A stretch of 64,000 nucleotides of DNA from Haloprofundus halobius (GTDB lineage Archaea > Halobacteriota > Halobacteria > Halobacteriales > Haloferacaceae): the NCBI RefSeq assembly GCF_020097835.1, contig NZ_CP083666.1, forward strand, positions 2,542,001 through 2,606,000, written 5' to 3'. How positions within the stretch are numbered: the stretch's first letter is position 1; every line of letters starts with the position of its first letter. Under the pieces are notes generated by a model, which saw only the letters and a list, made by a program, of their open reading frames with translations, did not search any database and had not been told where the DNA came from. Positions 40,133 through 64,000 of the stretch are shown in pieces. The position numbers and the translations under genes were made by a program.

Positions 40133-40232
40133 CTGAAATTAACCTCTCCGAATGGGGGTTTTCTTGGTTACAGTTAGGAGCCGGAGTGACAACTGTAGCG
40201 AATTCCGATATGGAAGTGATTCGTAGTGAACG

Positions 40233-43065: not shown

Positions 43066-43241
43066 AATAATCTGAAATTGCTCACCTAATAAAGGTTTTC
43101 TGTGAACTGTTCGCAGTAGAATTAGTTTGCTATACCACTAAAGTCAAAATTAAAGCCGTGTTTGTTAGCTAGGCGATACGCAGGCGGACCAGATGGTACG
43201 TGCCCACCGGTATGTAGCCCGATTATAGCAATATACGTACT

Positions 43242-43577: not shown

Positions 43578-44602
43578 CAGATACACCCTCTCTATTCAGC
43601 ACGCTATTCCTGACACATTCTCGGTAGATCATCACGAAATATGCGAGAACCAAAGTGCGATGCTGACAGGAGGCCGAACATATGATGTCAAATACAACGT
43701 GAAAGTCGTAGTCACTAAGAAGGAAATTCATAATCGACTCCGAGCAGTCCCCAGGCGCAAGCGTGGCTCTCTGGCTCTCTCATTCGGTCAAGACGGTTCA
43801 TAATCGGATGGTGCCTCCGCAAGAAGAGCCAAAGACCCACTAAGGGGACGCGATTAGGATTGAGGAGTAGAGAAGGGACGAAGACGCTGGTATCGGTGGC
43901 GAACAGATGGGGAGGGGGACCGACGATGCTCCGCCACTCAAATTGGTGGCAACCGACGAGAGTGAGACTCGGGCGTCTGCGCCTCACCAGATTACGTGAA
44001 ACCGAGAGACGGGAACCGATTATGAGAACGCGCTCCGGTGTAACCGGAGAACGAGACGGAGCTCCTAAAACACATCCTTCGTCAAATCGACCGCTTTCTC
44101 GAGAATACTGCCATGGTTGCCCAAAACGGAGAGTTGCGAGAGAGTTCATAATCGCCTGTTCGTGAGCGGAAGTGGTAGTTATCGGGGCTCGATGACGGTT
44201 ATGAACGTCTGATGAAGCCCGTCCGACTGGAGAGAGCGTTTCTGTTCCTCTCTCAGGTACCTCGGCCAGTTATGAAATTCGTGACGGAGTGAGTTTGTCG
44301 TGTTCGGGCATCTCGGAGACGTACAGCTGGAAATCCGAAAAGTACGAGAAGTCGATGAAAATCGGCGAGCAAATGTTTGAGCACATGCACCACGCCTCGG
44401 ACGAAATGGCAAAACCGAGTGTCCAACCTGCTCAATACAGATGGAACACGGCACCAGTTACAGAATCCGTCATCCGCTACAGGTTCTCGAAGAAGCCCTC
44501 GTCTGAGCATAAGATGTCAACTATCCTGCCAGGAGTGTTCGTTCACGGAGAACCAGAAGGCGAATACGGCGAGGAGACGGAGAGACGCGGAGTCGACGAG
44601 AG
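43578..44602. other. about 1 kb without a recognisable gene
   Basis: Several open frames overlap here on both strands, but none has a convincing domain or halophile composition. Short elements TTCATAATCG occur at 43727, 43797 and 44145, with inverted near-copies at 44018 and 44196. A possible decayed frame at 44291-44480 reads EFVVFGHLGDVQLEIRKVRE, a stop, then KTECPTCSIQMEHGTSYRI, a zinc-finger-like scrap. Confidence 0.5.
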
Positions 44603-44821
44603 CTAATATCCGCCCGCATCGTCGAAACAGCGCCCACACCGCGACGCGCCGCCCTCGTCGACGGCGGTCGCCAGATCGACGACAACCGTCGACTCCTCGG
44701 AGACGTGAAACAGCGCGCCACAGGCGGCGAGTCTGTGGGCGTGGTCGTCGTTGGGTTTGTGAACGGTCTTCGTCTGTTCGTTTAGCACTCCGCGCATAGT
44801 CTCCACCGACGGTGTGGACAT
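44603..44821 (-). CDS. small haloarchaeal CxxC protein
   Basis: A 72-residue protein with a C-terminal CGRCFDDAGGY and the pattern VHKPNDDHAHRLAACGALFHV, which I recognise from small proteins common in haloarchaeal genomes (a Cys earlier plus the final CxxC could bind zinc). Start at 44821 (MSTPSVETMRG) or ATG at 44797 (MRGVLNEQTK). Function unknown. It lies just beyond a decayed methyltransferase gene on the same strand. Confidence 0.6.
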   Translation of the reverse strand: MSTPSVETMRGVLNEQTKTVHKPNDDHAHRLAACGALFHVSEESTVVVDLATAVDEGGASRCGRCFDDAGGY

Positions 44822-44879
44822 GCTAAAAGACAGTACCCGTCAACTCCGGGAAATCGACGGTCAGTAGACACGTCGACGA

Positions 44880-45535
44880 CTCCGTCGGGCTCTCGAAACG
44901 ACGGGTCCTTCCGCCTCGCGACTACCGCGTAGAACGGATCGGACCCCAATTGAGCCTCCGAAATCACGTCGACGTCGTCGAATCCGCCGACGCCTCGAAA
45001 TACCGCCGGACGAGCGCCGCCCGCTCGTCCATCGACACCGTCCGCCACGCCCAAACCGCTTTCTGCGCGAACAGCCAGTTCGAGAAGGAGACGATACAGA
45101 CACCCCTGGGTCGGAGTACACGCCGAATCTCGGCGACGACGGCTCCGGAATACTGGACAGATACTGCGACGAGGACGGCGTCGACGGAGACGTTCTCCAT
45201 CGGAAGCGAAGGGGTTTCGTCGATATTTCTGACGGAGAGCCCGTCTAATCTGGGATTTTCGGCTAAGTCGTCTCAGTTCAATCCGTGGCCCACGACGCGC
45301 ACGTACTGAACGTCCTCGGGCAGATGCGACACCCAACTGCTCATCAGGTCGAGAGCGACGCCGTCAGAGCGGAGTTCGCGTCAGTAGAGTTCGGTTAGTC
45401 GAGTGTGGAACGCACCGCCGATGTGGTGGACGGAGCGCGGCGAACGGTAGAACCGAGCGTCGTCGCCGGTATCGAGTTTCGAGCGTTTTACCGAGGACAA
45501 CAGGGCGGGCGTGTCCGTCGCCTCCGATTCGGTCG
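44880..45535 (-). pseudogene. SAM-dependent methyltransferase pseudogene
   Basis: A continuous methyltransferase can be read in pieces: LLSSVKRSKLDTGDDARFYR and SVHHIGGAFHTRLTELY, a TGA (45381-45383), LDLMSSWVSHLPEDVQYVRV and VGHGLN, a second TGA (45273-45275), LAENPRLDGLSVRNIDETPS, LVAVSVQYSGAVVAEIRRVL, VCIVSFSNWLFAQKAV. A frameshift near 44985 then continues as FDDVDVISEAQLGSDPFYAV. Two in-frame stops and a frame change, plus no start codon, make this a clear pseudogene. It resembles haloarchaeal UbiE-like methyltransferases. Confidence 0.85.
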
Positions 45536-51571: not shown

Positions 51572-51644
51572 GGGACCGTGGGTTAGCCTGGTATACTTCG
51601 GGCCTTGGGTGCCCGTGACCCCGGTTCGAATCCGGGCGGTCCCA
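51572..51644 (+). tRNA. tRNA-Pro (TGG)
   Basis: The cloverleaf is complete. Acceptor GGGACCG/CGGTCCC, anticodon stem CGGGC/GCCCG with loop CTTGGGT (anticodon TGG), T arm CCCGG-TTCGAAT-CCGGG, discriminator A. No CCA is encoded and no intron is seen. It sits exactly at the border between core chromosome and the mobile-element-like region to its right, so its 3' half is the probable attachment site. Confidence 0.97.
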
Positions 51645-51720
51645 TAGCGACCAAAACTATTGCGGAGCTTCTTACCGGTTCTAAACCTCACAGCTACCGC
51701 CACTTCGGAGGTGTCGTCTG

Positions 51721-51948
51721 ATGGCGACCCACCTTTCGGCGGTCGCCGGCGAACGTCGCTGCCTCAACTGTGGCGGCCACGTCACCGAGCAGTTCTGCCG
51801 CGTTTTCGGAGACCTCGACGACCGAGTACACCGCTGCCCCAGCTGCGACAATGGCAACCGGATTAGTCGTGGCAGCGCCGCCGGCCTGGACGTCAACCTC
51901 CGCGATCCCCAGGACGCTCCTCGACGCCTCGGAGGTGAGCGCCCATGA
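51721..51948 (+). CDS. small zinc-ribbon protein (DUF7563-like)
   Basis: A 75-residue protein with a zinc ribbon made of CLNCGG and CPSCDN around VTEQFCRVFGDLDDRVHR. This pattern (CxNCGxxVTxxFxRVF) is that of small proteins in many haloarchaeal plasmids and viruses, which I recall as DUF7563. GGAGGTG eight bases before the ATG is a good Shine-Dalgarno site. It is the first gene of the operon and overlaps the next by 4 bp. Confidence 0.75.
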   Translation: MATHLSAVAGERRCLNCGGHVTEQFCRVFGDLDDRVHRCPSCDNGNRISRGSAAGLDVNLRDPQDAPRRLGGERP

Positions 51949-52223
51949 TTCGCCAAAGTCGCTCACGAGTCCCCCAGGACCCCGCCGAGTGGCGAGAATC
52001 ACAGACGCTCGAACACCTCTACGTCGAGCTTCGCTGGGATCAGCGGAAGATCGCCAACCACTTTGACGCGCTCGTCGACGGCGAAGAAGTCACTCAGTGG
52101 AAAGTCAAGTGGGCGCTCCGACAGCGTAACATCGCCCGCGAGGAATCCTGTGGGGGCGTTTCCCATGGCCTCGCACGTCAACTCTGGGAAGCCGAACCCG
52201 AAGCAGTTGGAGGCGGTCGGTGA
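51945..52223 (+). CDS. helix-turn-helix-like small protein
   Basis: A 92-residue protein. The stretch LEHLYVELRWDQRKIANHFD, then VTQWKVKWALRQRNI looks like a helix-turn-helix of the type used in transposase and homing-nuclease DNA-binding modules, with the recognition helix WKVKWALRQ. It has no catalytic domain. It overlaps both neighbours by 4 bp. Probably a regulator of the element. Confidence 0.55.
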   Translation: MIRQSRSRVPQDPAEWRESQTLEHLYVELRWDQRKIANHFDALVDGEEVTQWKVKWALRQRNIAREESCGGVSHGLARQLWEAEPEAVGGGR

Positions 52224-52765
52224 TGTCGTCGGACCGCTACCAGCGCTCGGTTGCGACGCAACTCACTCCGTACGTCGGCCTCGTCGAGGACGACGACGAC
52301 ACCGACTGCCACATCGGAGTCTGTGACGAGGCTGCCGTCTACTCGGTGCCGCATCCCGCCTCGTTCGGTGCCGATCTCTCGAAGTGTGAGTTCCATCTCG
52401 CGCTATATCGGGACCAGCACCCCGAACTGTGGCAGAAGATTCGCAGCGCCGACATCCCGGACCCAAAGTTCTACACCGACACCGACGACCGGTTTACCGA
52501 CTTCGACGACGTTCCCGAGCAGGTCCGAGAGGATCAGTACCTGGTCGGTCTCGACGTACTCGGCCTCGCCATCTACCACGGTGATCCCGACGACGACGGT
52601 CTCGTCACCTTCGAGGCCGTCGACCGGCGCCTCGAGACACGCGCGACGAAGCAGGTCAAAGTCAACCAAGCCGGCCAGTTCATCGACCACCTTCGGCTGA
52701 ATCGCGGCTTCGTCGAGATGAATCCCGAGATTCTCGACATCATGTACCCGGAGGAGCCCCGATGA
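52220..52765 (+). CDS. hypothetical protein of the element's rightward operon
   Basis: A 181-residue acidic protein. It has a CHIGVCDEAAVYSVP segment and a later SKCEFHLALYRDQHPELW, which may form a loose metal site with three cysteines and a histidine. The second half (EQVREDQYLVGLDVLGLAIY and RLETRATKQVKVNQAGQF) is not recognised. Starts possible are a GTG at 52220, overlapping the previous stop, or ATG at 52223. Confidence 0.6.
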   Translation: MMSSDRYQRSVATQLTPYVGLVEDDDDTDCHIGVCDEAAVYSVPHPASFGADLSKCEFHLALYRDQHPELWQKIRSADIPDPKFYTDTDDRFTDFDDVPEQVREDQYLVGLDVLGLAIYHGDPDDDGLVTFEAVDRRLETRATKQVKVNQAGQFIDHLRLNRGFVEMNPEILDIMYPEEPR

Positions 52766-52968
52766 CTGACGTCAACGGTGCGCCTCCAGGCCTCGTCGCT
52801 GGTGTCGTCGGTGGGACGGTTGCCCTCCTGAGCGCTGTCACGGCAGGCAGTCTCGGACTGTTCTCGCTCGGCGCCGTGGTGACTGCGCTCGTCTCTGTCG
52901 CTGTCCTCGCGCTCGGACTGGGGACCGCCTGGAATATCGTCCGAGCGTACTCGGGTGGTCTCGCGTGA
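52762..52968 (+). CDS. 68-residue two-helix membrane protein
   Basis: A short hydrophobic protein (LVAGVVGGTVALLSAVTAGS, LFSLGAVVTALVSVAVLALG) with two membrane helices and a short tail. It overlaps both neighbours by 4 bp. It is the only membrane protein in this operon. Role unknown. Confidence 0.6.
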   Translation: MTDVNGAPPGLVAGVVGGTVALLSAVTAGSLGLFSLGAVVTALVSVAVLALGLGTAWNIVRAYSGGLA

Positions 52969-53222
52969 GTTCGGACGCCGACGGCCGCGACCTGGAAGCC
53001 GAACTCGACGCGCCCAACGCGGGCCAGAGCGGAATTCCTGTTGACGCTGTCTGCATCGGGTGCAAGCGAACTTCGGTTCGTCGCGCGCCTGTCGACAGCG
53101 TCGAGGACGTTCCCTCTTCGTTCCGTCACGTCTGTGGTGGCTGTCGGAAAGTCACCTGGTGGAACGTCGTCTCCGTGCTGCACGGACTGATCGATGCCGA
53201 AGAGGACGGTGATAAGCGGTGA
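52965..53222 (+). CDS. small zinc-ribbon protein
   Basis: An 85-residue protein from a GTG start. Cysteine pairs CIGCKR and CGGCRK are 29 residues apart, a zinc ribbon with a longer knuckle spacing. The N-terminus is acidic, the C-terminus ends LIDAEEDGDKR. It overlaps both neighbours by 4 bp. No known domain. Confidence 0.6.
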   Translation: MSSDADGRDLEAELDAPNAGQSGIPVDAVCIGCKRTSVRRAPVDSVEDVPSSFRHVCGGCRKVTWWNVVSVLHGLIDAEEDGDKR

Positions 53223-53587
53223 GCCTCGATGCTCCAGACCTCGCGCAGACGATGCTTCCGGTAGGTGCAGAGAACGACCTCGGTAGGCCAGAGAGATTCA
53301 ACGGCGCTCTTCGTTGTGGCTACTGCGAGCAGGATGTTGAGGGTACTCAAAAAGCCCACCGCGTCCCTCGTGAGTATCTCGCAGACCACGCCGTCGTTGA
53401 TACGGGACACGACGAAATCCCCGTCTTCGGCTTCTACTGCCGGTACTGCTCTCGCGTTCTCGCCATCGATCCGCACAGCGATACGACTGACCTCGGCCCC
53501 GGCACCGGATGGATCGCTGTCCAGGCGGACCTCGCGACCGGCGACTGTGGCCCCGTTCTCGTCCCCACTCAGGAGCTCTACAAATGA
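53219..53587 (+). CDS. zinc-finger protein of the rightward operon
   Basis: A 122-residue protein with CGYCEQ and CRYCSR pairs flanking a His (KAHRVPREYLADHAVVD). The HNH-like or treble-clef arrangement is suggestive but the third His of an HNH is not seen. It starts GTG at 53219 and overlaps the next gene by 4 bp. Function unknown. Confidence 0.6.
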   Translation: MSLDAPDLAQTMLPVGAENDLGRPERFNGALRCGYCEQDVEGTQKAHRVPREYLADHAVVDTGHDEIPVFGFYCRYCSRVLAIDPHSDTTDLGPGTGWIAVQADLATGDCGPVLVPTQELYK

Positions 53588-54138
53588 GCATCGACTCACC
53601 GATTTCCGGCGACATCACGCCGTCTCAGTTGACGGCAGGTACTGATACGAAGACACTACGTCGTACTTCACCTATCGCTCACGGTGCCGGCGTCTCGAAC
53701 GTCCTCGGAGATGACAACGCAGTCTACGACGCTCTTCGCGAACTCTGGCGCGACCGCGTCGGCGATCCCGACGACCGAGTGACTATCCCGGCCGACATCG
53801 ACTACAATCGGCACGGAGAGTACGTCTGGGTGTTCTTTTCGAGTGGCTACAAAGCGGGAGACACGAACCAGTACGGTAACTGGAAGAAGTGGTTTAAGTA
53901 CCATCTCATGCTTCGCGAGGTCGAACGCGATGAGCACGGCGGTATCAAGAATCTCCGAAAGCCTCCGACGTCGTGCCACGTCGTTATCGAACCACAGAAG
54001 GAAGGCATGACCTACAACCCCGAGAAGAACGGCGGAAGAGAGGTCGAAGTCGAACTGCCGTTCGGAGAAGGGACCCGGGTCAACGTGCAGACGACCTACG
54101 TCGAGCGTCCGAGTCAACCGGTTCGACGCGATGACTGA
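53584..54138 (+). CDS. hypothetical protein
   Basis: A 184-residue protein from an ATG overlapping the previous stop. The stretch YVWVFFSSGYKAGDTNQYGN then WKKWFKYHLMLREVERDEHG is conserved-looking and rich in aromatic and charged residues. The end (PFGEGTRVNVQTTYVERPSQ) is beta-like. No domain is recognised. It overlaps the next gene by 8 bp. Confidence 0.6.
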   Translation: MSIDSPISGDITPSQLTAGTDTKTLRRTSPIAHGAGVSNVLGDDNAVYDALRELWRDRVGDPDDRVTIPADIDYNRHGEYVWVFFSSGYKAGDTNQYGNWKKWFKYHLMLREVERDEHGGIKNLRKPPTSCHVVIEPQKEGMTYNPEKNGGREVEVELPFGEGTRVNVQTTYVERPSQPVRRDD

Positions 54139-55318
54139 TGCGCTCGGTCTCGTCGATGACGACGACCTCGTCGACGCTGGACAAATCAAGCGCGAAAGTT
54201 GCCGTATCTGGAAACTGGAGACGTATCTCCGGTTCGATATCGACCGTAAGCACTCGCTCGTCCGCACGATCGACAAGTCGGAGAACCTCATCGATGTCGG
54301 CGGTGGTGCCGAAATCGAGGCGTTCCGCGAGCGGCAGAAGGAGGGCTGGTTAGAGTCTCGCCTCGAGTCCGACCGTTGGGACCTCCTGGGTCTCGTTCCT
54401 GCTGAGACGACTGTAGAGCACGAAGACGGCGATACCTCCCGCGTGCGCTGGCAGCGCGAACTCAAAGTCTACCAGGCGCAGGACTGGGGTGAGAAACCTC
54501 GCGACCACTGGGCGCACCATCCGAAAGTCGAAGCATCACTCGGGAAAGGCCGGAACCCGCACGTCGATGAGTGGCACGAGGTTCTTGATCGCCTTCGTGA
54601 ACTCGTCCTCTCGCACTGCGAGTGGGCCGGTGTTACTGATGACGATCTTGTCGCCGATCCGTACTTCAAGCCGTCGACGAGGCCGACCGTTGAGGTTGAG
54701 CACCCGGAGGGACGTCGTGAGGACCTACAGCACTACTACAACCGCTTCGAGGCCGTCATCTACAGCGAGTGCATCAAGCGGCAGACCTACGCTGCGTACG
54801 ACATCCTATCGGTCCTCGTCGAGAGACACGGTGCGACCTACGGCGAACTTGAGGCCGAGACGGGGTATTCGCGGTCGAACCTACAGTACCACATCGGTCG
54901 GCTCGTCGACGTCGGCCTCCTGGAGACGCAGGGGAACCCGGCGGTGATTTGCTTCGCTGCTGGGAAGCTACTGGAGATAGCCGCCGAGTCCATTGAGGAC
55001 GTCGCAGCGTACTTTGGAGAAGAGACGCTCGGAAAGCGCCGCCTCGAGCGCGAGAAGCGCGCCGAGGAGACAGTCGAGAAACGAGAGAACGGAGAGGCCA
55101 ACGGCACACATGAACGCGAGAATGACCCTCGCGACCTCGGTCCCGACGCTCGAGGGGACGATGAGGATGACCCACTCCCCTTCGTGTATCTCAAGGACTG
55201 GTCCGGGACGCCGCAGATGATCATGGACCAGCTCGTCGATGACGAGCACCCGCGTGGAGAGACTGACGTCCGAGTAAGGGTCTTCCCGGACCACGACCCG
55301 GACGGCGGACGTCGGTAG
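54131..55318 (+). CDS. winged-helix protein with C-terminal acidic tail
   Basis: A 395-residue protein. The N-terminal 200 residues (WKLETYLRFDIDRKHSLVRT, EVLDRLRELVLSHCEWAGV) have no known domain; a winged helix lies at about 225-285 (YAAYDILSVLVERHGATYGE, YSRSNLQYHIGRLVDVGLLE). The C-terminus is a charged coiled coil and acidic tail ending in a short conserved-looking part (WSGTPQMIMDQLVDDEHP). Likely the operon's regulator or a replication-associated protein; I recall the family as DUF7845 (unverified). It is the last gene of the rightward operon. Confidence 0.6.
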   Translation: MTDALGLVDDDDLVDAGQIKRESCRIWKLETYLRFDIDRKHSLVRTIDKSENLIDVGGGAEIEAFRERQKEGWLESRLESDRWDLLGLVPAETTVEHEDGDTSRVRWQRELKVYQAQDWGEKPRDHWAHHPKVEASLGKGRNPHVDEWHEVLDRLRELVLSHCEWAGVTDDDLVADPYFKPSTRPTVEVEHPEGRREDLQHYYNRFEAVIYSECIKRQTYAAYDILSVLVERHGATYGELEAETGYSRSNLQYHIGRLVDVGLLETQGNPAVICFAAGKLLEIAAESIEDVAAYFGEETLGKRRLEREKRAEETVEKRENGEANGTHERENDPRDLGPDARGDDEDDPLPFVYLKDWSGTPQMIMDQLVDDEHPRGETDVRVRVFPDHDPDGGRR

Positions 55319-55639
55319 GCGCTGACGACGACGCGTTCGCTCCTTCTGTTAGCGGTAGCTATCGCCAGAGAACGCTCGTTTTCGCTTTTTTCCAGCCCCT
55401 GAAAAGACGCACACATCAGAGTCACCTCATTTCCGCTCCAAGTGGTGGTACGTCACAGTCGACCACCATTTTGGATCGGTTTCGACGTCGTCGCCGCCCC
55501 GATCGACGCCTCAACTTGGTGTGATTGTCCCTTCTCGACGATACACGAAAGTGAATTCCAGCGTCTGAGAAGGTCTCCGCTACAGATACGGTTTGCAAAA
55601 TGGCCCTACGGTAGTGCTACTAAGGTAGAACCAAATAAC

Positions 55640-55662
55640 GCGGGCGGCAGAACGCCGCCCGC
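55640..55662. terminator. possible bidirectional hairpin terminator
   Basis: gcgggcggc, loop agaac, gccgcccgc is a perfect 9-bp stem placed between two converging operons. There is no strong T-run after it, so termination is possible but not certain; archaeal terminators are usually U-rich. Confidence 0.4.
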
Positions 55663-55735
55663 TACCGCACCGCGGTGGTTGTTCGGTCGGTCGGAGACGC
55701 CCCGAGGACGGTGAACGCGGAGGTTTCACGAGTTG

Positions 55736-55742
55736 TATATAA
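55736..55742 (+). promoter_or_regulatory. orphan TATA-like element
   Basis: TATATAA in a GC-rich spacer, about 90 bp beyond the stop of the leftward operon's last gene. It is close to palindromic, so direction is unclear. No gene starts nearby in either direction; it could serve a small RNA. Confidence 0.3.
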
Positions 55743-55831
55743 GTGAAAATCTGTCTCTACTCTACCGCGTTCGACGCGAAAACCAAGGGTACAACAGCCC
55801 AGGTGCTTACGAAGAAGGTTGCAGAATCCGC

Positions 55832-56221
55832 TTAGGCGGGCTTCTGTGTCTGTCGGAAGGCAGCAACCCACTGTCGCAGAGGGACGAGATCGTATCCCGA
55901 CGGTCGCGCCCACACGTACGCGTTCCCGAGTAGCCAGATGTGGACTGGCGCGGCGAGCATCCCACCGACATCCCCCAGCGGTCCGAGATACAGCCGCAGG
56001 TACGCCGCGAGGAACAGGAGACCAGTTACCGCCGGAGCGACACCGACCGCGACAGCGCGCCAGAGAGCGGCCTCTCGCTTCATCTCCACGTCGACCCACG
56101 GTCGACCGTCGTCGTCGACGCCGAAACTGGCGCTGTGTCCGAGCACACGAGCGACGACGTAGTGGCTCAGTTCGTGGAACGCGTAGCCGGGCTTGAACCA
56201 GCGGTAGACGGCGGACGTCAC
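55832..56221 (-). CDS. minimal M50B-like membrane metalloprotease
   Basis: A 129-residue protein from a GTG start (GTGA overlap with the previous stop). The motif FHELSH (His16, Glu17, His20) is a zinc-protease HExxH, followed by a VVARVLGHSASF helix, and two or three membrane helices (VAVGVAPAVTGLLFLAAYL, VGGMLAAPVHIWLLGNAYVW). SGYDLVPLR could carry the third ligand. It is much shorter than cellular site-2 proteases and has no PDZ or CBS domain. It is the last gene of the leftward operon. Confidence 0.7.
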   Translation of the reverse strand: MTSAVYRWFKPGYAFHELSHYVVARVLGHSASFGVDDDGRPWVDVEMKREAALWRAVAVGVAPAVTGLLFLAAYLRLYLGPLGDVGGMLAAPVHIWLLGNAYVWARPSGYDLVPLRQWVAAFRQTQKPA

Positions 56222-56463
56222 GCGCCCGTCCTCCGTACATCGAAATCGCGGGGGTCGGCCCAGAGCGCGAACCCCCAGATGAGCGTGAACAGCGCTGCGA
56301 ACCAGAGCGATATCGCGACCATGCCGACGAAGTGAGCAAAGTCCGGAACGAATCCGAGGTTTCGAGCGATCGCGTGCGAACTCACCGCTGCGAGTTCGAG
56401 ACCGGCCGCCTCGTACACCGCGCGCTTGACTCGATCGGGGTCGTTGCCTTGCATCCCCATCAC
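56218..56463 (-). CDS. small membrane protein
   Basis: An 81-residue protein. A short amphipathic N-terminal half (DPDRVKRAVYEAAGLELAAV) and one membrane helix (VGMVAISLWFAALFTLIWGF). It overlaps the protease gene by 4 bp and the previous gene by 4 bp. Function unknown. Confidence 0.6.
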   Translation of the reverse strand: MMGMQGNDPDRVKRAVYEAAGLELAAVSSHAIARNLGFVPDFAHFVGMVAISLWFAALFTLIWGFALWADPRDFDVRRTGA

Positions 56464-56789
56464 CGTCGGAAGCGCTGGTAGAACGCGAACAGCGCCGCCG
56501 TTGCACCTCCGATGGCGAGCATGAGGATCATCCGGTTCGCCAGCGCCGGCAAAACCGTAATCGATGCCGCACCGACGACGACCGCGACGACGATGAGCGG
56601 AGCTGGCGAGCGCTGGTTGACTGCTAGGCCGCCGCCGAAGATGATGACGGCAAACAACACGAACACGGACCCGAGTTGATCAGTATACGGTGCGATCCAG
56701 CATGCCGGGTCTGGTCCTCCGGCGAAACAATCGTAGTCTCCCGACTGCAGTACCGTCGAGAGCGCGTTGGTGAGTAGTGTGGGTATCAT
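56460..56789 (-). CDS. three-helix membrane protein
   Basis: A 109-residue protein from ATG at 56789. It has a short N-terminus with two cysteines (YDCFAGGPDPACWIAP) that may form an extracellular disulfide, and membrane helices at about 37-55, 60-78 and 82-104. It overlaps both neighbours by 4 bp. Its small size, several helices and paired cysteines resemble small membrane components of secretion machines and virions, but no family is recognised. Confidence 0.6.
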   Translation of the reverse strand: MIPTLLTNALSTVLQSGDYDCFAGGPDPACWIAPYTDQLGSVFVLFAVIIFGGGLAVNQRSPAPLIVVAVVVGAASITVLPALANRMILMLAIGGATAALFAFYQRFRR

Positions 56790-57145
56790 AGTCTCTGTCT
56801 GATCGCTATCTGAAGGATGAACAGCCCGATCATCGCCGGGATGCCGTACGTGAGCCAACTGGCTGCCGATGGCGGCACCCCCAGGTTCTGCAGAATCCGA
56901 TCACCGTTGCTGACGATGTTCAACACGTCCGCGATGATACCGAGCGCCGTGATTGGACTGAAGATATCGCCGGCCACGTCACTATCTGCTCCCTCGAGGT
57001 CCTCGTTCGCCGACTCAACGTCACGTTCCTCGCCGGTCGTGAGGTTAATACCGAACGCCGGACCGAGCGTCGTGCTCGCAAAGGCCGTCGACCCCACCAA
57101 ACAGATGATGAGGACGATCGCCGCTTTCCCTCGAACTTCGACCAT
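56786..57145 (-). CDS. exported/membrane protein with N- and C-terminal helices
   Basis: A 119-residue protein. The first helix (AAIVLIICLVGSTAFASTTL) may be a signal or anchor, the middle is acidic (VESANEDLEGADSDVAGDIF), and the C-terminus has a helix (YGIPAMIGLFILQIAIRQRL). Its start overlaps the stop of the 659-residue protein gene (TGATG). Role unknown, but it is coupled to that large secreted protein. Confidence 0.6.
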   Translation of the reverse strand: MVEVRGKAAIVLIICLVGSTAFASTTLGPAFGINLTTGEERDVESANEDLEGADSDVAGDIFSPITALGIIADVLNIVSNGDRILQNLGVPPSAASWLTYGIPAMIGLFILQIAIRQRL

Positions 57146-59124
57146 CAGTTCAACCTCCCGCTTATGTAGAAGCCGATGCCGACCGTTATCGCGAAGACCA
57201 CGACAGTCTCCGGGATATCCAGCCAGCCGATGAGCACCAACAGGCCACTAAATCCGGCCGTGACGACAGCCCCGATGCCGGCATGGATACCGCCGAACAT
57301 GCCACCCACGAAAATGACCAGGAGCGACCCCACGATGGTCATCCACGTCGACGACAGTCCGAGGTCGACGTTGATGCCGGAGACGCCGACCGGGACCTTG
57401 TTACTCACCTCTTCGTCGTCGATCGTCGCCGACCACTCGACGATGAACGTGTCGTCGAGTTGCTCCTCCGAGAGCGCCACCGTCTCGCTGTAAATCGAGA
57501 CCTCACCGAACTGCGTCGTCTCGAACAGCGGTGTATCCTCGTTGTTGCGCTCGTAGACCGACAGCGAGAGGTCCTCGACGTCGGCCGTCCCGGCGTCGAA
57601 CTTGAAGACTACTCGTCCCTTATCCGTGTCGTTGATGCGTTCGGCGTAGATGTCCGTCGCGTACGTCTCCCCTTCCGGGATGCCGAGTCCCGCCTCCTCG
57701 ATGATTATCGGGAGGACCTCGTCCTTGCGGGAGCTATCCGCGCTGTAGCCTCCGACACCTTTCCGGACGCTGTCCTGATTCTCGACGGCCATTCGGTACT
57801 CTTCGCCGTCCTCGAGCGTGAGACACGCGATGTTCGCAGCGCCGAACTGAGCACCCATCACGTCACGGTGAGTCCCGTTGATCCGGACCTGACTCATGAG
57901 GTACGTCGATGAGGTCTCGAAGCGCCCGCTCTCGTCGACCAGCTCGTAGCACTGCCGGAACGTATCGTCGTCATCCTCGCGCTGCAACGTGGTGTAGACG
58001 CGCTGACTCGGGTCCGTCGTGATGACCGATCGGTTCGCGTATCCGTCCGCGTCGAACGTGAACCGGAGGTCCTCACGAGGGACGCCGGACAGATCCAGCG
58101 TGCCGTCGCTCGTACTCCGTTCGTCGTAGTAGTCGCCGGTCAGCGACTCGATGGTGACGTCGACGTCGTCATCGATGAGTTTCGACGTGTTCGAGGCGTT
58201 GTGAATCGTGAGGTCGTTCGGTGTCACAAAGGTGTAAGACACGGCGTCTTCCGGGTCGGTGTCCTGTTCCTGGATGACCGCTGTCCACTCGTTTTCTCCG
58301 GGGTCAGCCGTGTAGTCCACGCTTACCTCCTCGCCCGAACTCGTCTCCGAACCGACGGACTCCCACTCGCCGGAGTTGTTCACGTAGAATTCGACAGTAA
58401 ACTCGTCGTCACCCGCGTTCTCGACAGATGCACTCAGCGTGACGTTTCTGTCGCTGACGTAGTCCCCGCGTCGAGGCGACGGATCGTCGATGCTTGGGAC
58501 CTGTGACCCCGTCTGGATGATGTCTATCTCCCGGTCGCTCCCGTCGTTGGGCACGTCCAACGTCGCGACACCGTCACCGTTGCTCGCCGTCGAGTCCAGA
58601 ATCTCACCGGAATCGAGGTCAACCGCCGCGATGCCCGTACTCGCCGGAACGTCGTTGAGCGTCAGCGAGGTCGTGGTTCCGCCGGGGCCGGAGTAGACGA
58701 GGTCCGTCTCCCCGTTATCTTCGCCCGCCGCCGATACGTCGCCGTACTCGAACGACTCGACGTCGCCGCCGAATCCGACAGCGCTCCTCGAGTCGCCGTC
58801 GATGGTGATCTCGTCGTCGCCGGCGTCGACATTCGAAAACGTCGTCCACTCGTCGTCGTGGCTGTCGACTGTGAGTGATGTCGGTCCGTCCGAGGAGATT
58901 GATGGGAGCGGGTCGAGGTCGACCGTGTTGTCGTCGGGGAACGGATTCCCGCTGCTGGCCCACAGCTGGTATCCGACTTCGAGGTCCGGTCCGTCGATGG
59001 CGGCGAAGTGCGCGCCCTCACCGACGTAGTACGTGTCCGTGTCGGCGATGGCGACAGCTGCCGGGACGAAAACGCTGAGAAGTACGCCGATGGCGATGAG
59101 CAGTGCTCGGGTCTTCCGCTTCAT
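57145..59124 (-). CDS. large secreted protein with three C-terminal membrane helices
   Basis: A 659-residue protein. A Sec-type signal peptide (ALLIAIGVLLSVFVPAAVAIA) is followed by about 550 extracellular residues rich in Asp, Ser and Thr, including a CARDB/Ig-like part (VSDRNVTLSASVENAGDDEF, VEFYVNNSGEWESVGSETSS). Several N-glycosylation sequons are present (NVT, NNS, NAS, NTS, NRS, NGT, NDT). The end has three membrane helices (VGSLLVIFVGGMF, VVTAGFSGLLVLIGWL, VVVFAITVGIGFYISG). It looks like a surface or spike-like protein, but a single anchor would be usual. A 36-bp motif shared with the beta-helix gene lies upstream. Confidence 0.72.
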   Translation of the reverse strand: MKRKTRALLIAIGVLLSVFVPAAVAIADTDTYYVGEGAHFAAIDGPDLEVGYQLWASSGNPFPDDNTVDLDPLPSISSDGPTSLTVDSHDDEWTTFSNVDAGDDEITIDGDSRSAVGFGGDVESFEYGDVSAAGEDNGETDLVYSGPGGTTTSLTLNDVPASTGIAAVDLDSGEILDSTASNGDGVATLDVPNDGSDREIDIIQTGSQVPSIDDPSPRRGDYVSDRNVTLSASVENAGDDEFTVEFYVNNSGEWESVGSETSSGEEVSVDYTADPGENEWTAVIQEQDTDPEDAVSYTFVTPNDLTIHNASNTSKLIDDDVDVTIESLTGDYYDERSTSDGTLDLSGVPREDLRFTFDADGYANRSVITTDPSQRVYTTLQREDDDDTFRQCYELVDESGRFETSSTYLMSQVRINGTHRDVMGAQFGAANIACLTLEDGEEYRMAVENQDSVRKGVGGYSADSSRKDEVLPIIIEEAGLGIPEGETYATDIYAERINDTDKGRVVFKFDAGTADVEDLSLSVYERNNEDTPLFETTQFGEVSIYSETVALSEEQLDDTFIVEWSATIDDEEVSNKVPVGVSGINVDLGLSSTWMTIVGSLLVIFVGGMFGGIHAGIGAVVTAGFSGLLVLIGWLDIPETVVVFAITVGIGFYISGRLN

Positions 59125-59206
59125 CCGAGATCAGGCGGATTGCCCTCTCGATGGTGTGGTCTGCGAGCGGCTCAAATTCATACGTAGAAACACGCATAAA
59201 ATCGGA

Positions 59207-59242
59207 TAACAGTAGCGTGACGGGGCGTTACGAGTGGTTACG
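59207..59242 (-). promoter_or_regulatory. shared 36-bp regulatory motif, copy 1
   Basis: On the plus strand the motif starts taacagtagcgtgacgg and ends ggttacg. It matches copy 2 at 62576-62611 in 32 of 36 positions. On the coding (minus) strand it contains CGTAACC, CGTAACG and CGTCACG at 10-bp spacing, one helical turn, as for cooperative binding of a protein. It lies 83-118 bp before the start of the 659-residue protein gene, just before a TTTTATG box. Confidence 0.7.
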
Positions 59243-59288
59243 GGGAGCGATGGATAGGACTCGTCAATTCGTTATCTTCGTCTCGGAT

Positions 59289-60791
59289 TCATGATTTGCA
59301 CTCTGAAACAATAATGTCGTCCCCAGTATGGATCACCATCAGTTTACAATCGTTTGCCTCATCAGGTGATTGAGCGAATCTCGGCGAATAATCTCCGTGA
59401 TAGTCGTGGCCGGCATTTCGTGGGTCTTCCCAGCCTTTAACGAGATGACCAGAGTAGATGAGAACTCTCCCCACCGACGAATAGTAGTTCTGTTCCCAGT
59501 CACCGACGAACGTCACTTCCGATACTGTCTCGATTTCAGAGTCACTAATTTCCAGCCCTGCATTAATCGTCTGTTCGTGAGTTAAATTGTTTGAGGGTTG
59601 GACTTGGCCATCTGGCGAGCTCACTACGGGAAGTCCAGTCCCACCGAGTACCGCGGCTTCAAGAAGCCAGCCGTTTGTGACCGCGGCGACCAAGAGGAGC
59701 CCCGCGAGCCCGAGCGCGACCTGTCGCGTCGACACCGACGGAAGAACGCTGGCCAGATCCTCGGTCACGACGACGCCGACCGTCATCGCGAGCGGTGCGA
59801 GGAGCGCCCAGAGGTAGTAGTCGTGTCCAGCGAACCCGTGGGGGAGCAGGACGATGAGCGTGATGCCGCTCGCAAGCCACGACGAGAGGAGGACGTTCCA
59901 CGCCGTCTGGTCGTGTCGAGTGCGGTTTGTCCAGTACGCGAACGCGAGGATGCTCGCGGGGAGCGTGAGCGTGAACGCGATGTGGATGGGATGCCACGAG
60001 AAGTGGCTCAGCCACCACTCCGGACGTGCGTAGACCGTGAGGCCGGTCTTGAGAACCGAGTAGCCAAGCAGTTGCCCGGACTCGACGGGACCGTAGATCC
60101 GTCGGATGTACCAAATCAAGGCGAACATCGTCGCAACGACGAGGGGGACGCCGACCGCGTGCCGGTATCGACGCGCGTACAGGCAGAGCGCGGACAGCGG
60201 GAGCGCAACCGTGGCCTCCCACATGTGGTTCGTCATCGCGACGGCGAGCAGGCCGACGCTTGCGAGATACCAGCGGTTTTCGTCTGTCTGGGCGAACTGG
60301 TACATCGCGATTGCGGCTCCTGCGGTCAGGAGGATGCTGAGGGCTTCCGGGAGGTAGCCGAACGAAAACCGGAGGAAGAGCGGATGTGCCCACAGACTGA
60401 ACGCAGTGATGGTTCCCGCAAGGTAGCCGTAGTGGCGAGCGACGAACGAACCGACCAAGACGACGACGCCGATGGCGATGACGAAGTTGATGAGCCGCAT
60501 CCCGCTCGGGTAGCCGAGCGCCACGAACGGCGTGTTGAGGAGGCTATGCAGGTGGAGTGCGCTAAAACTTTCCCGGGGAGTGATGTATGTGAACGCGCCG
60601 AAGCCATCCCGGACGAACGAGAGCGTCTGGAAGTAGCCTGCGACCTCGCGGGTCGCTCGGTACTGGATCGGTGTCGCTGCCGTGAGCAGGGGGAGTGCCG
60701 CAATCGCGGGGAGAATCCAAAGGAAGAGATGGTGTAATCTATCAAACCGATAGAGTACGGATTCGGTTTGGTGAGTGATTCTGTCCAACAT
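59289..60791 (-). CDS. GT-C-fold glycosyltransferase-like membrane protein
   Basis: A 500-residue protein with about ten membrane helices (PAIAALPLLTAATPIQYRAT, INFVIAIGVVVLVGSFVARH, LAFAYWTNRTRHDQTAW) followed by a soluble C-terminal domain (SEVTFVGDWEQNYYSSVG). The first loop contains EVAGYFQTLSFVRDGFGAF, similar to GT-C enzymes that use dolichyl- or polyprenyl-phosphate sugars, such as the ArnT/PMT class. The ATG at 60791 is chosen; the longer frame adds nothing. It lies between two sequon-rich exported proteins and could glycosylate them. Confidence 0.65.
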   Translation of the reverse strand: MLDRITHQTESVLYRFDRLHHLFLWILPAIAALPLLTAATPIQYRATREVAGYFQTLSFVRDGFGAFTYITPRESFSALHLHSLLNTPFVALGYPSGMRLINFVIAIGVVVLVGSFVARHYGYLAGTITAFSLWAHPLFLRFSFGYLPEALSILLTAGAAIAMYQFAQTDENRWYLASVGLLAVAMTNHMWEATVALPLSALCLYARRYRHAVGVPLVVATMFALIWYIRRIYGPVESGQLLGYSVLKTGLTVYARPEWWLSHFSWHPIHIAFTLTLPASILAFAYWTNRTRHDQTAWNVLLSSWLASGITLIVLLPHGFAGHDYYLWALLAPLAMTVGVVVTEDLASVLPSVSTRQVALGLAGLLLVAAVTNGWLLEAAVLGGTGLPVVSSPDGQVQPSNNLTHEQTINAGLEISDSEIETVSEVTFVGDWEQNYYSSVGRVLIYSGHLVKGWEDPRNAGHDYHGDYSPRFAQSPDEANDCKLMVIHTGDDIIVSECKS

Positions 60792-60920
60792 CGTACTTTG
60801 AAGCGTTACAAGAAGATGGTTTACGTCTTGCGCTACCAATCCGGAGACGAGCCTCGTCCATCAGTGTGGTGTCCTCTACCCCCTGATGTTGAATATTATG
60901 AGGTGCGGCTATCAGACTTC

Positions 60921-62546
60921 TTAACTATCGTCCACAAGGTTGTCAGTGTTAACTGTGACTTCGGACGGAGTTTGGTCGTCTATTAAATTACTTTCGTACC
61001 CTTCGACCAATCCCTTAAACACCATTGTCCCATCCTTCCACCCATACGTCGATGTGTCATTCAGTTCAATCGCTGGATCGAGATACCGGTCCGGATTGTT
61101 ATTGTAGATATGGACTTCAAGCAGCGTCTTCCCAACCTCCTCGTCTTTATCGTTAATTTGGACGGCCGGTCGCGGGTCGGTGTCATCCGTGCTCCCGACG
61201 TCGATCAGCGACAACGTTCCCGTCGCGGAGTTATATCCACGCAGTTCGACACCGACACGTGTGGCATTTACCGTTGCATCCCGAAAGATGATGTCCATCG
61301 GGCCGTCAGCGATGATACCACGGTCCCCGTCATTATCGTTTGTCGGAAGGACCTCGCAGGACAGTACCGCCGTCCCCTGCCCCCGTAACGCCCATTGGTC
61401 TCCTTCGCCGGGTTGGGCCGCTGTACCGGCGAGGATTGCCGTCGCGTCGCTGGTTTCGGTGGTCGCTCGGGCACAGTAGTTTGAGACGTTCTCGTAGTAG
61501 CCACCGATGTATGCGTGTTTTTGCACACGAGCTTGGAATCCGCGAGAGCGGGCGTCTGAATCTTGTTGTCGAAAGTCATCCGAGATAACTCGCGTTGAGT
61601 CGTCAACGAATATGTGGTCAATCGATGCGTTCGAGTTCGCCCGGAGACACCAGTACCTTTCGGGCTGGATGCCGCTGAAGCTGTCTAGTCGGAACTCACA
61701 ACCGTCTATGACTTCGATGGATTCGATAGCTATCGGGTTCCCGCTTGCGGCGTTGATTATCCCCTGTTGGGTGGACTGGTCGCTAAGGTCTATGTCCCGG
61801 ACCTCGACGTTGGATAATCGAAGCATCCCCATCTCCGCGTCAACACCGTACCCCCATACCCGTCCGCCGTCGGTCGTGTCACTATTGCCGTCGACTGTGA
61901 GGTCTGCCCAGAGATGGGTGGCACTGGAGGCGTCGCCACTGACGAACTCCAGCATGGAGTTGCCAGCATTTTGGACGGTCGAGATGTTCTTACCACGACC
62001 CACGACCGCGAAGCTCTCTGTCTCTCCGACAGATCCATCCCAAGTTACTGTCCCCTCTGGGAGCACGAACAGAGCCGGAAGCGACGTATCATCAACAACA
62101 TCGTTCAGCACATCCCCAGAAGAGAGATACACGACGTTATTTATCTGCTCTACATCTATCCCTGACGCATCGTCAGGAAGTGTGTAGATACCATCGTCAT
62201 CATCGTCAGAGAAGGCACCGCCAGACGGCCACTCGGTTTCGGTCTCTCCTCCGAGAGTGAGCGACTCGGTATGAACGCCCGCGAGCGGGTCATCTTCTGT
62301 CCCAACCGTTCCCGATCCCGAAGATTGCGCCCGAACAGGTCCGGTCGAGGCCTTCAGCGCTGCCGAACTCGCCGAGTATCCCAGCGCCACCAGCCCGATC
62401 GCCTTCAGCGCCTCTCGACGAGACAGTCCCATCCTCTCGAACCACGACACCGACACTTCGTTTCCGTCGCTGTCCGTGGTCGCCAGCTCGTCGCCGACGA
62501 TCTCTCGAATCTGTGCTTCTTGCTCCTCGGAGAACCGAGAACTCAT
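60921..62546 (-). CDS. Tat-exported beta-helix protein
   Basis: A 541-residue protein with an unusually long leader. A 40-residue cytoplasmic extension precedes the twin-arginine signal SRREALKAIGLVALGYSA (Arg43-44), ending near VRAQSSGS. The rest is a beta-solenoid pattern (LSNVEVRDIDLSDQSTQQGI, ESIEVIDGCEFRLDSFSGIQ, IIFRDATVNATRVGVELRGY). It has several N-x-S/T sequons. Such folds in viruses bind or cut host glycans. Copy 2 of the shared motif lies 30-65 bp before the start. Confidence 0.72.
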   Translation of the reverse strand: MSSRFSEEQEAQIREIVGDELATTDSDGNEVSVSWFERMGLSRREALKAIGLVALGYSASSAALKASTGPVRAQSSGSGTVGTEDDPLAGVHTESLTLGGETETEWPSGGAFSDDDDDGIYTLPDDASGIDVEQINNVVYLSSGDVLNDVVDDTSLPALFVLPEGTVTWDGSVGETESFAVVGRGKNISTVQNAGNSMLEFVSGDASSATHLWADLTVDGNSDTTDGGRVWGYGVDAEMGMLRLSNVEVRDIDLSDQSTQQGIINAASGNPIAIESIEVIDGCEFRLDSFSGIQPERYWCLRANSNASIDHIFVDDSTRVISDDFRQQDSDARSRGFQARVQKHAYIGGYYENVSNYCARATTETSDATAILAGTAAQPGEGDQWALRGQGTAVLSCEVLPTNDNDGDRGIIADGPMDIIFRDATVNATRVGVELRGYNSATGTLSLIDVGSTDDTDPRPAVQINDKDEEVGKTLLEVHIYNNNPDRYLDPAIELNDTSTYGWKDGTMVFKGLVEGYESNLIDDQTPSEVTVNTDNLVDDS

Positions 62547-62575
62547 ACTACACTACAGACCGGGAGAAATGCAGG

Positions 62576-62611
62576 TAACAGTAGCGTGACGGCCCGTTAC
62601 GACCGGTTACG
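62576..62611 (-). promoter_or_regulatory. shared 36-bp regulatory motif, copy 2
   Basis: Same motif as at 59207-59242 (32 of 36 identical). Here it is followed by ctgcatttctcccg and the start codon of the beta-helix protein gene 30 bp away. The four differences fall in two dinucleotides between the conserved CGTAAC units, as expected for a binding site with spacer freedom. Confidence 0.7.
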
Positions 62612-62633
62612 AGTTTTGGAGGGCCGAAGGAGA

Positions 62634-62900
62634 TCAGTACCCGCGCTGCGCGATGGCCACCCGAATCACGGTCGCGAGAACCGCGATGCCGATGACGCCG
62701 ATTACCGTTGTCAGGGGGACCCAGACGAGCGTTACCTCCGCGAGTCGGTCCAGCGGTCCCATCGAGAACGTGCCGTCCTGGACCAACGAACTCTCTGCTG
62801 CCTTCTCCGCCAACACCGACAGAATCGTCGGCGCGAAGAGGAAGAACACGAACGCAGCGAACAGCGTACTGATGATCTGCGTGATTCGGCGCAGCACCAT
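62634..62900 (-). CDS. two-helix membrane protein
   Basis: An 88-residue protein, start MVLRRITQIISTLFAAF, with two membrane helices (IISTLFAAFVFFLFAPTIL, VPLTTVIGVIGIAVLATVI) flanking a polar loop (AEKAAESSLVQDGTFSMG). It shares a one-base overlap with the gene upstream (TGATG). Function unknown. Confidence 0.6.
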   Translation of the reverse strand: MVLRRITQIISTLFAAFVFFLFAPTILSVLAEKAAESSLVQDGTFSMGPLDRLAEVTLVWVPLTTVIGVIGIAVLATVIRVAIAQRGY

Positions 62901-63184
62901 CAGGCCCCACCTCTCGCCGACTGGTACACCGCAGCGCCGAAGACGAACAGCGCGACGAGAACCATCGTCACCGTCGGCATCCCGTCTTGCGCCTGGACGA
63001 TGTACCCGAGACCTTCCTCGGCCTCGACGCTGTACCGGACGTCCTCGTTTCGGTCTTCGGCGTTGTCCTGGAGCGTGCTGAACAGCGGCGCAACCCACAC
63101 GAGCGTCGCGCCGACAATGACGATCGTGATTAGCGCGATCATCAGCTGGTAGGACATCTGCCCGCGTTCGTCACGCCGGAACAT
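62900..63184 (-). CDS. two-helix membrane protein (pilin/VirB-like size)
   Basis: A 94-residue protein (MFRRDERGQMSYQLMIALIT), with membrane helices at about 14-33 and 70-88 and an acidic extracytoplasmic loop (DNAEDRNEDVRYSVEAEEG). The RRDERGQMSYQ start recalls pilin-like leader ends (G followed by Q-x-x-Y), but the second helix argues against a simple pilin. It shares one base with both neighbours. Confidence 0.55.
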   Translation of the reverse strand: MFRRDERGQMSYQLMIALITIVIVGATLVWVAPLFSTLQDNAEDRNEDVRYSVEAEEGLGYIVQAQDGMPTVTMVLVALFVFGAAVYQSARGGA

Positions 63185-64000
63185 CAGAACTCGACCTCCA
63201 TCGCCGCGTCGAGATCGGCGTCGACACCGCCGAAGTCGACCTCGGGCAGGTCGCCGACGTCGCCTGCAACGTCCTCGACGCTGGCGACGGGATTCTCGAA
63301 CTCGTCGGAGAAGAGCCGTCCCAGACGTGCGAGTTTGGCCTCGATGTCCGGTTCGTCCTTTCGCTCGAAGTCCGGGTCGCGTGGAATGCGGTCGACGGGC
63401 TCGCGGAGCGTTGGTTCACGGAGTGTCGGCTCTCTCGGGTCGCGAAACTCCGGCGGAACCTCGGTCGGTGTCTCCAGTATTCGGTCCATCTCGGTGTCGA
63501 CTCGAACGTCGGTTTCGATTTCTGGGAGTTCGAAGACGTCCTCCTCGATTCGGAGGTCAGTATCCGGAATCGTGTCGATATCCGGAATCTCTTCGATCAG
63601 TTCGTCGATGCCGACTTCGGTCTCGACGTCGAGTCCCGTGTCCAACGCCTCGTCGAGTCGGACCTCCGTTTCCTCGACGACATCGAGGAGTCCCTGGACT
63701 TCGCTGTCCGCAGCACGTTCAGAGAGTTCGAGGTCTTCCTTGACGCCCCGAACATTCGAGTCCCCGTCGAGGAACATCTGCTGAGCCTGCTCGATTCGAG
63801 CTTCTGCGCCCTCGATGAGCCGTCCGACGGGGCCTGCGCTCTCCTGTCCGGGTTCGACGCCGACCGCTCCGGGAGTCGCCTCTGACTCGTCGGAGCGCCG
63901 CTGTGGAACATCTCGATTCCGGAGGTCACGAGGGTCGAGTTCCGAGCCCTGAGACTCGCTTCTTCCCGTCTCTTGGAAGTCGCCCGGCTGTGCTTCGGGT
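63184..64000 (-). CDS. acidic, proline-repeat, probably disordered protein (5' part beyond window)
   Basis: The frame is open from the right window edge to a stop at 63184, at least 271 codons. An ATG at 63777 could be a start, but the sequence upstream (GRLIEGAEARIEQAQQ, SELDPRDLRNRDVPQRRSDE) is continuous and has the same style, so the real start is probably outside. It is very rich in Asp, Glu and Pro with repeats such as REPTLREPTLREP and alternating ET-DV runs. No membrane helix or domain is seen. It may be a scaffold or matrix protein. Confidence 0.6.
   Translation of the reverse strand, partial: PEAQPGDFQETGRSESQGSELDPRDLRNRDVPQRRSDESEATPGAVGVEPGQESAGPVGRLIEGAEARIEQAQQMFLDGDSNVRGVKEDLELSERAADSEVQGLLDVVEETEVRLDEALDTGLDVETEVGIDELIEEIPDIDTIPDTDLRIEEDVFELPEIETDVRVDTEMDRILETPTEVPPEFRDPREPTLREPTLREPVDRIPRDPDFERKDEPDIEAKLARLGRLFSDEFENPVASVEDVAGDVGDLPEVDFGGVDADLDAAMEVEF

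Follow-up and report, generated by a model that had tools for sequence, protein, structure and literature searches.

What is the DNA that begins at the 3′ end of a tRNA-Pro gene of Haloprofundus halobius, and can it still move? The stretch analyzed here, which we call the window, comprises 64,000 nucleotides (G000:C1:2542001-2606000) inside a 3.2-Mb contig. An earlier interpretation made from the letters alone (the sequence-only reading) held that chromosome-type genes stop right after tRNA-Pro and that the DNA beyond is the left part of an integrated element of no class that it recognized. We conclude that the region is very probably a dead, truncated and non-excising provirus remnant of the type of LSV-48N, a temperate lemon-shaped virus of Haloferax Atlit 48N (PP151251) published in 2025 (PMC12714723). 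This makes it a new, though defective, member of a kind that was described only recently. The novelty lies in how widely the LSV type is spread across Halobacteria, in the link of its ATPase to His1 and SSV1, in candidates for its coat proteins and in a predicted origin element.

The element interrupts chromosomal DNA at the 3′ end of tRNA-Pro

The tRNA-Pro(TGG) gene occupies positions 51572-51644 on the + strand (ARAGORN). DNA homology to genomes of the same genus breaks exactly at its 3′ end (51,644/51,645), where the sequence-only reading had seen the chromosomal genes end, and restarts at 64,982-65,000; in the comparison with genome G003 the exact position is 64,984. The element thus extends from 51,645 to 64,983 (~13.3 kb). 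Its right end (G000:C1:2606983) lies 0.98 kb beyond the window and about 93% of it is inside, so it is not the left part of something larger. The GC content of the element is 0.609 compared with 0.647 and 0.651 in the flanks, and every 13.3-kb stretch in the first 40 kb of the window has a value of at least 0.648.

Comparison with element-free strains had been suggested as a check, and the four same-genus genomes G001-G004 proved to lack the element and to be empty at this site. The spacing between the permease-tRNA-Pro pair and the replicative helicase gene MCM is 13.7 kb here, compared with 0.76 kb in G001, 1.6 kb in G002, 1.7 kb in G003, 3.0 kb in G004, 2.0 kb in G021 and 0.5 kb in G019. 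Because the left boundary coincides with the tRNA end and sister genomes have an empty site, we conclude that integration took place at the 3′ end of tRNA-Pro. The right break falls within a gene for a rhodanese, which points away from MCM. This rhodanese gene is intact in G003 and G004; in the window copy its start (~36 codons) is joined in frame to a gene of the element. The earlier proposal to extend the sequence past 64 kb and look for an integrase, an ATPase and a repeat of the tRNA-Pro 3′ end was followed, and none of them was found; specifically, neither an integrase nor an ATPase gene lies between the element and MCM.

The leftward operon corresponds to the second half of the LSV-48N structural operon

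Iterated profiles run over 29 elements revealed one conserved gene order, shared by about 28 elements including LSV-48N: c144, c99, c196, c292, a large protein, two small two-helix proteins, an adhesin with a twin-arginine translocation (Tat) signal, c659, c119, c109 and c129. Across these elements the operon is accompanied by a divergent AbrB-like gene, c188 and an ATPase. The window element retains the stretch from the middle of the large protein through c129, and the rest of the operon is lost: c292, c196, c99, c144 and the ATPase are all present in a sister provirus on the same chromosome and none of them occurs between the window element and MCM. The suggestion that the leftward genes specify a particle assembly therefore holds, as they are the second half of the LSV-48N structural operon. 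The ten leftward open reading frames (ORFs) span 55832-65091, the last one extending past the window end. They had been described as membrane or exported genes, which fails for the rightmost one. This ORF of 635 codons (63184-65091, - strand; the window holds its 3′ part, 63184..64000) is a fusion, in which the first ~36 codons are the rhodanese start and the remainder is the C-terminal ~600 amino acids of a virion protein of more than 1000 amino acids; it matches a 1031-amino-acid protein of the sister provirus with E=1.6e-11. No gene of the leftward operon gave a significant PHROG or Pfam match to pleolipovirus spike or membrane proteins; the genes match LSV-48N instead.

The c659 family exported protein of 659 amino acids (57145..59124, - strand) is the homologue of LSV-48N CDS0012. 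LSV-48N was the only phage record that it matched (tblastn, E=8e-21), and it also matches plasmids of Halobaculum, Natrinema, Halomicrobium and Natronomonas (PL23). Its AlphaFold2 model, with a mean predicted local distance difference test (pLDDT) score of 82.8, is a chain of beta-sandwich domains followed by three C-terminal transmembrane helices. A structure search with this model returned generic Ig/FnIII-like matches only, the best being to the CbhA FnIII modules (Z 10.9); no SSV tail protein appeared in the match lists shown, which is not counter-evidence. We predict that the protein is a membrane-anchored virion spike or tail-end protein. The most abundant protein in LSV-48N supernatants is described as having a central beta-sandwich and a C-terminal resemblance to an SSV19 tail protein (PMC12714723). 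CDS0012 fits that description, although the ORF is not named in that report. We also observed that the homologue on a Natrinema DC36 plasmid (L007 15629-17482) is annotated as a ‘sulfite exporter TauE/SafE family protein’, a name that it seems to owe to the membrane helices at its C-terminus.

Upstream of c659, nearly all readable elements encode proteins of ~75-95 amino acids with two predicted transmembrane helices, usually as a tandem pair. The first and second members of the pair in the window element are proteins of 94 (62900..63184) and 89 (62634..62903) amino acids, both on the - strand. The two-helix architecture is that of the spindle-virus coat proteins SSV1 VP1/VP3 and His1 ORF21. 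By this analogy we predict that the pair contains the candidates for major capsid proteins A and B, respectively. Neither the coat candidates nor the spike has significant sequence similarity to SSV1 VP3, C792 or His1 proteins. The profile match was likewise rejected as evidence, since SSV1 VP3 scored 10.2 bits and shuffled sequences reached 12.3, which leaves homology unproven; PDB profile searches with the capsid candidates gave nothing convincing.

The ATPase did establish a connection to these viruses. The family, as represented by complete relatives, matched His1 ORF16 with 122 bits and SSV1 B251 with 20.4 bits, whereas the best of 3500 shuffles scored 5.5. The LSV-48N member, CDS0023 (L005 14294-15247), was deposited as a ‘DnaA-like replication initiation protein’. 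Judging from the homology of the family to the His1 ORF16/SSV1 B251 ATPases, this label is probably misleading.

A Rep-Arvir gene is split by a frameshift

The sequence-only reading had found no Rep gene. One is present, as two ORFs in different frames that together cover a single 561-amino-acid family, phrog_15150, end to end. The N-terminal part (53584..54138, + strand) matches positions 21-192 of 561 (E=2e-23), and the C-terminal part (54131..55318, + strand), which carries DUF7845 (E=7e-10) and a MarR-like winged helix, matches positions 194-554 (E=5e-87). When joined by an X, the two ORFs match DUF7845 as a single domain. As sequenced, the frameshift is at ~54,125. Thus the eight rightward ORFs counted earlier (51721-55318, closely packed) and the ten leftward ones are indeed there, on either side of a hairpin-containing gap, but the last two of the eight are halves of one rep gene. 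DUF7845 was shown in 2026 to be a family of rolling-circle endonucleases, Rep-Arvir (PMC13107129).

Homologues of this Rep occur in 56 other genomes; nearly all of those listed are one uninterrupted frame, and the great majority have 550-690 amino acids. Because homologues are almost always single open frames, we consider the window copy to be broken, and its Rep is probably inactive owing to the split. A separate loss of the catalytic tyrosine, suggested by eye from HHPK in place of YHPK, was rejected: the alignment sets LKVYQ, in the C-terminal half, under the tyrosine, which is therefore retained. Searches of phage and plasmid records with Rep gave no match (E≤0.01 and E≤1e-5).

The closest Rep homologues among those listed are 55% (G257) and 54% (G297) identical. 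The loci that encode them (L096 on G257:C3 and L097 on G297:C1) belong to another type of element with many membrane or exported genes, and their Rep and origin hairpin are the closest to those of the window. A gene that resembles, by eye, the zinc-finger-like gene upstream of rep in the window also precedes rep in both. The membrane or exported genes of L096/L097 that were tested had no Pfam or PHROG match, and an exported protein encoded by L097 matched nothing among phage records, Pfam or PHROG. We do not claim a pleolipovirus label for these two elements, as the searches with Rep and the L097 exported protein returned nothing to support it. The presence of the same rep-origin cassette beside different structural modules in the window and in L096/L097 documents module exchange.

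A covarying hairpin marks a predicted replication origin

The 513-bp gap between the opposed operons (55319-55831) contains a perfect hairpin with a 9-bp stem and the loop AGAAC (55640..55662, + strand), 322 nt after the rep stop codon. All 20 Rep relatives for which downstream DNA was read have a hairpin with a stem of 8-11 bp 301-369 nt past the rep stop, and 19 of them have AGA(A/G)C as the loop. None of 4200 shuffled sequences gave a stem of at least 9 bp with such a loop. Among ten distinct hairpin sequences, both partners vary in eight of the nine pairs, and pairing holds in 98.9% of cells; no column shuffle out of 500 matched this result, and slid controls paired in 26-56% of cells. Shortly before the hairpin is an imperfect inverted repeat, CCCTACGG-TAGTGC-TACTAAGG (55604..55627, + strand). 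Alignment with the 20 relatives showed that it is conserved, most of them having a CCCYTA.GG..(G)TGCCCCTAAGGG-like inverted repeat at this place.

The experimentally required origin of SNJ2 is an inverted repeat plus a hairpin downstream of rep (PMC13107129). Because the hairpin in the gap is conserved and covarying, and the SNJ2 origin is built likewise, we predict that the 55604-55627 repeat and the 55640-55662 hairpin form a rolling-circle origin region. The resemblance to the SNJ2/betapleolipovirus module includes the DUF7845 plus winged helix-turn-helix Rep (PMC13107129). The window branch differs in its AGA(A/G)C loop hairpin and in the distance to the origin, 301-369 nt rather than 156-197 nt; in the window, moreover, a lemon-virus structural operon is attached and rep is broken. 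None of the other LSV-type elements tested, the sister provirus included, has the AGARC hairpin after its rep gene, and several of them have a CCTTAGG...CCTAAGG-type hairpin at 162-193 nt instead. In the window branch, accordingly, either the repeat or the hairpin may be the part that is nicked. For one branch of the Rep-Arvir enzymes, themselves a recent discovery, covariation thus supports a predicted origin element.

A complete sister provirus on the same chromosome

A provirus of 31.6 kb (G000:C1:2382351-2413980; together with its tRNA gene 2382279-2413980, L022 7279 to L030 13980) lies 0.2 Mb from the window copy. Its attL is tRNA-Ala(CGC) at 2382279-2382350, and its right end is a 14-bp repeat of the tRNA-Ala end (2413967) with a tyrosine integrase adjacent. 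It is complete, with attL and attR, the integrase, a P-loop ATPase 63% identical to that of LSV-48N over 94% of its length, an uninterrupted 673-amino-acid Rep and the whole structural operon; it also holds a glycosyltransferase and a 615-amino-acid transposase-like protein. The sister provirus and the window element have the same module layout, begin with a DUF7563 gene, and have nearly identical genes for a 181-amino-acid and a 68-amino-acid protein. The gene for the 181-amino-acid protein lies in a stretch of 747 bp with 91% DNA identity (window ~52210-52955). Most other genes are far diverged: the sister spike, which has a LamG-like segment, is ~23-29% identical to that of the window, and the sister Rep belongs to the phrog_3288 branch rather than to phrog_15150. 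The 747-bp stretch amid this divergence points to recent exchange or to a shared recent source.

Origin and present state of the window copy

In our model an ancestor would have integrated at the 3′ end of tRNA-Pro, and a later deletion would have removed the right half of the provirus, namely the upstream structural genes, the assembly ATPase, the integrase and attR. The same deletion would have taken most of the rhodanese gene, fusing its start in frame to the virion-protein remnant. Since rep is frameshifted and the integrase, ATPase and attR are gone, the window copy should neither excise nor form virions alone. In intact relatives, the inverted repeat and the hairpin that follow rep would be the place where Rep-Arvir initiates rolling-circle replication. 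The leftward operon of such relatives would produce an enveloped spindle-shaped particle from the paired two-helix coat proteins, with a membrane-anchored beta-sandwich spike carrying exchangeable adhesin modules.

Several points weigh against this interpretation. No second copy of the tRNA-Pro 3′ end (attR) was found to the right of the element, nor anywhere in the genome with fewer than two mismatches, so site-specific integration of the window copy is unproven by an att pair. The rep frameshift may be a sequencing error, and the retained genes are otherwise open, so that selection for some function is possible. In addition, lemon-shaped virions have been shown for a single isolate of the group, LSV-48N (PMC12714723). 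The sequence-only reading had counted the joint lack of an empty-site strain and of a second att copy against an element. The att copy is indeed lacking, owing to the right-end deletion, but empty sites exist and settle the matter in favor of the element; because the right end is deleted, the missing copy does not refute it.

Four other explanations were considered. The remnant might have been kept because part of it benefits the host, for example by forming a surface appendage or through superinfection exclusion, to which the surface protein or regulators would contribute. In favor of this view, the leftward reading frames have stayed open along 7 kb, and the fusion ORF continues the frame of the rhodanese start. 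However, the rep gene is disrupted, four genomes of the same genus lack the element, and the loss may be too recent for more decay, in which case open frames need no selection; we regard this explanation as unlikely. If, instead, the two related proviruses with their 91% identical stretch had misled the assembly, a full provirus could have been collapsed or misjoined at the right end and the frameshift would be a sequencing error. The right junction argues against such an artifact, as it lies outside the shared stretch, between unique DNA and a chromosomal gene, in a 3.2-Mb contig, and we give this possibility little weight. Slightly more doubtful still is a living, satellite-like element mobilized in trans by the Rep, ATPase and integrase of the sister provirus. 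Although the 747-bp stretch of 91% identity, the intact predicted origin element and coat genes, and the retained spike would suit a satellite, a right att copy is missing both near the element and from the rest of the genome, the sister Rep is on another branch (phrog_3288 vs phrog_15150), and no AGARC hairpin follows the sister rep. That the region is an ordinary stable envelope or secretion operon of the chromosome has nothing in its favor beyond the missing integrase; it is refuted by the empty-site genomes, and the virus homology with conserved synteny, the Rep and the origin element also contradict it, leaving it scarcely credible.

A widespread LSV type and a proposed family of temperate viruses

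LSV-48N has lemon-shaped virions and exists in integrated and circular/episomal forms (PMC12714723); it was described as having no sequence relationship to the lemon-shaped viruses of haloarchaea known before it. The window copy resembles it in structural gene order, the spike/tail-like protein, the two small two-helix proteins and the DUF7845 Rep. In contrast to LSV-48N, it has no equivalents of CDS0016-0020, no ATPase and no integrase, its rep is frameshifted and of a different branch, its site is tRNA-Pro, and it has an additional glycosyltransferase and Tat adhesin. Because the first half of the structural operon and the ATPase are gone, the element is classified as a truncated derivative of the LSV-48N type rather than as a functional member.

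By profile search, the c659 family occurs in 36 of 391 Halobacteria genomes and 26 of 86 genera, that is, in ~9% of species or one in eleven; it is in none of the four same-genus genomes. Single-protein scans of viral and genome contigs found no relative, and the aligned spike sequences differed too much to allow a pattern scan. LSV-type elements occur both as proviruses and as plasmids. Natronomonas pharaonis PL23 (NC_007428) and the Natrinema DC36 plasmid (NZ_CP084478) have the operon order of the window but are complete replicons with their own integrase genes, which shows that elements of this type can exist as circular plasmids too. Genome G127 has an LSV-type element on a chromosomal contig (L067, G127:C1) and on a second contig (G127:C3), with protein lengths equal to those of PL23 (L006); this strain contains integrated and circular forms.

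The group shares with His1 (Halspiviridae) and SSV1 (Fuselloviridae) an ATPase homologous to His1 ORF16/SSV1 B251 and, in its coat-protein candidates, the small two-helix architecture; the window copy differs from both in that its ATPase is deleted. We think it rather likely that these elements constitute a family of temperate spindle-shaped viruses that extends throughout Halobacteria (~9% of species, 26 genera) and in which LSV-48N is the one virus studied so far. This family would have a fixed structural operon with a tandem two-helix capsid pair and the ATPase common to His1 and SSV1, together with interchangeable Rep-Arvir/origin modules shared with other haloarchaeal elements. If so, LSV-48N would be tied to other spindle-shaped viruses. 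The link of the group to His1 and SSV1 is the ATPase (CDS0023), and CDS0013 and CDS0014 emerge as testable coat-protein candidates, which the LSV-48N authors lacked. The window copy is a fossil, yet it leads to a virus type, published from Haloferax in 2025, that is widespread in Halobacteria.

Remaining genes of the element

All rightward genes upstream of rep are on the + strand. The first after attL, as in the sister provirus, encodes a DUF7563 CxxC zinc-ribbon protein of 75 amino acids (51721..51948; PF24444, E=2.5e-18) whose family is in seven elements. It is followed by an ORF for a 92-amino-acid protein with no assigned function and no significant Pfam match (51945..52223), the 181-amino-acid protein (52220..52765; sister provirus homologue E=4.5e-114, also in plasmid PL23), the 68-amino-acid hydrophobic protein (52762..52968; common to the sister provirus, phmmer E=2.7e-30), an 85-amino-acid CxxC protein present in three other LSV-type elements (52965..53222) and the 122-amino-acid zinc-finger-like protein (53219..53587; weak Pfam match).

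In the leftward operon (- strand), the Tat-signal exported protein of 541 amino acids (60921..62546) has an N-terminus conserved in 11 other elements and a variable C-terminal region that differs among elements; from this pattern we predict an exchangeable adhesin or receptor-binding accessory. Its predicted fold (pLDDT 36) was unusable. The next gene encodes a membrane glycosyltransferase of the PMT/ArnT kind (59289..60839; Pfam PMT_2, E=1e-4, below the curated cut-off), for which phmmer found no counterpart at the equivalent place in LSV-48N, PL23, the Natrinema DC36 plasmid or the sister provirus. Downstream of c659 are membrane proteins of the c119 (56786..57145) and c109 (56460..56789) families, with homologues in 27 and 23 other elements, respectively, an 81-amino-acid membrane protein placed at the position of LSV-48N CDS0009 by synteny only (56218..56463), and the final gene of the operon, a c129 family membrane protein (55832..56221) with homologues in 19 other elements, including LSV-48N CDS0008 and PL23.

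Other insertions at tRNA-Pro and a probable island at tRNA-His

The last 20 bp of tRNA-Pro are intact in the window and occur once in the genome; the closest other sequences have 2-3 mismatches (pattern search of its own genome). In G001, G002 and G021, which lack the element, the last 22 bp of tRNA-Pro are duplicated 130-165 bp downstream (L015 1116-1137, L016 1082-1103 and L019 1070-1091). The second copy is identical to the tRNA in G001 and has one mismatch in G021 and four in G002. Because of these footprints of past integrations, we conclude that tRNA-Pro has been targeted repeatedly. In Haloferax volcanii, tRNA-Pro is used by a pleolipovirus (PMC7911831). A different insertion of ~8 kb with a polygalacturonase-like gene occupies the tRNA-Pro/MCM site in a genome of another genus (G010:C11, L020 1123-9214), and the site is therefore an insertion hotspot. 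Elsewhere in the window, the DNA directly after tRNA-His (40060-40133) is gene-poor with a GC content of 0.44-0.57 (40134-45000). It contains a gene for an HNH-type zinc-finger protein (40233-41144) and lipoprotein-like ORFs, and is probably another, older island.

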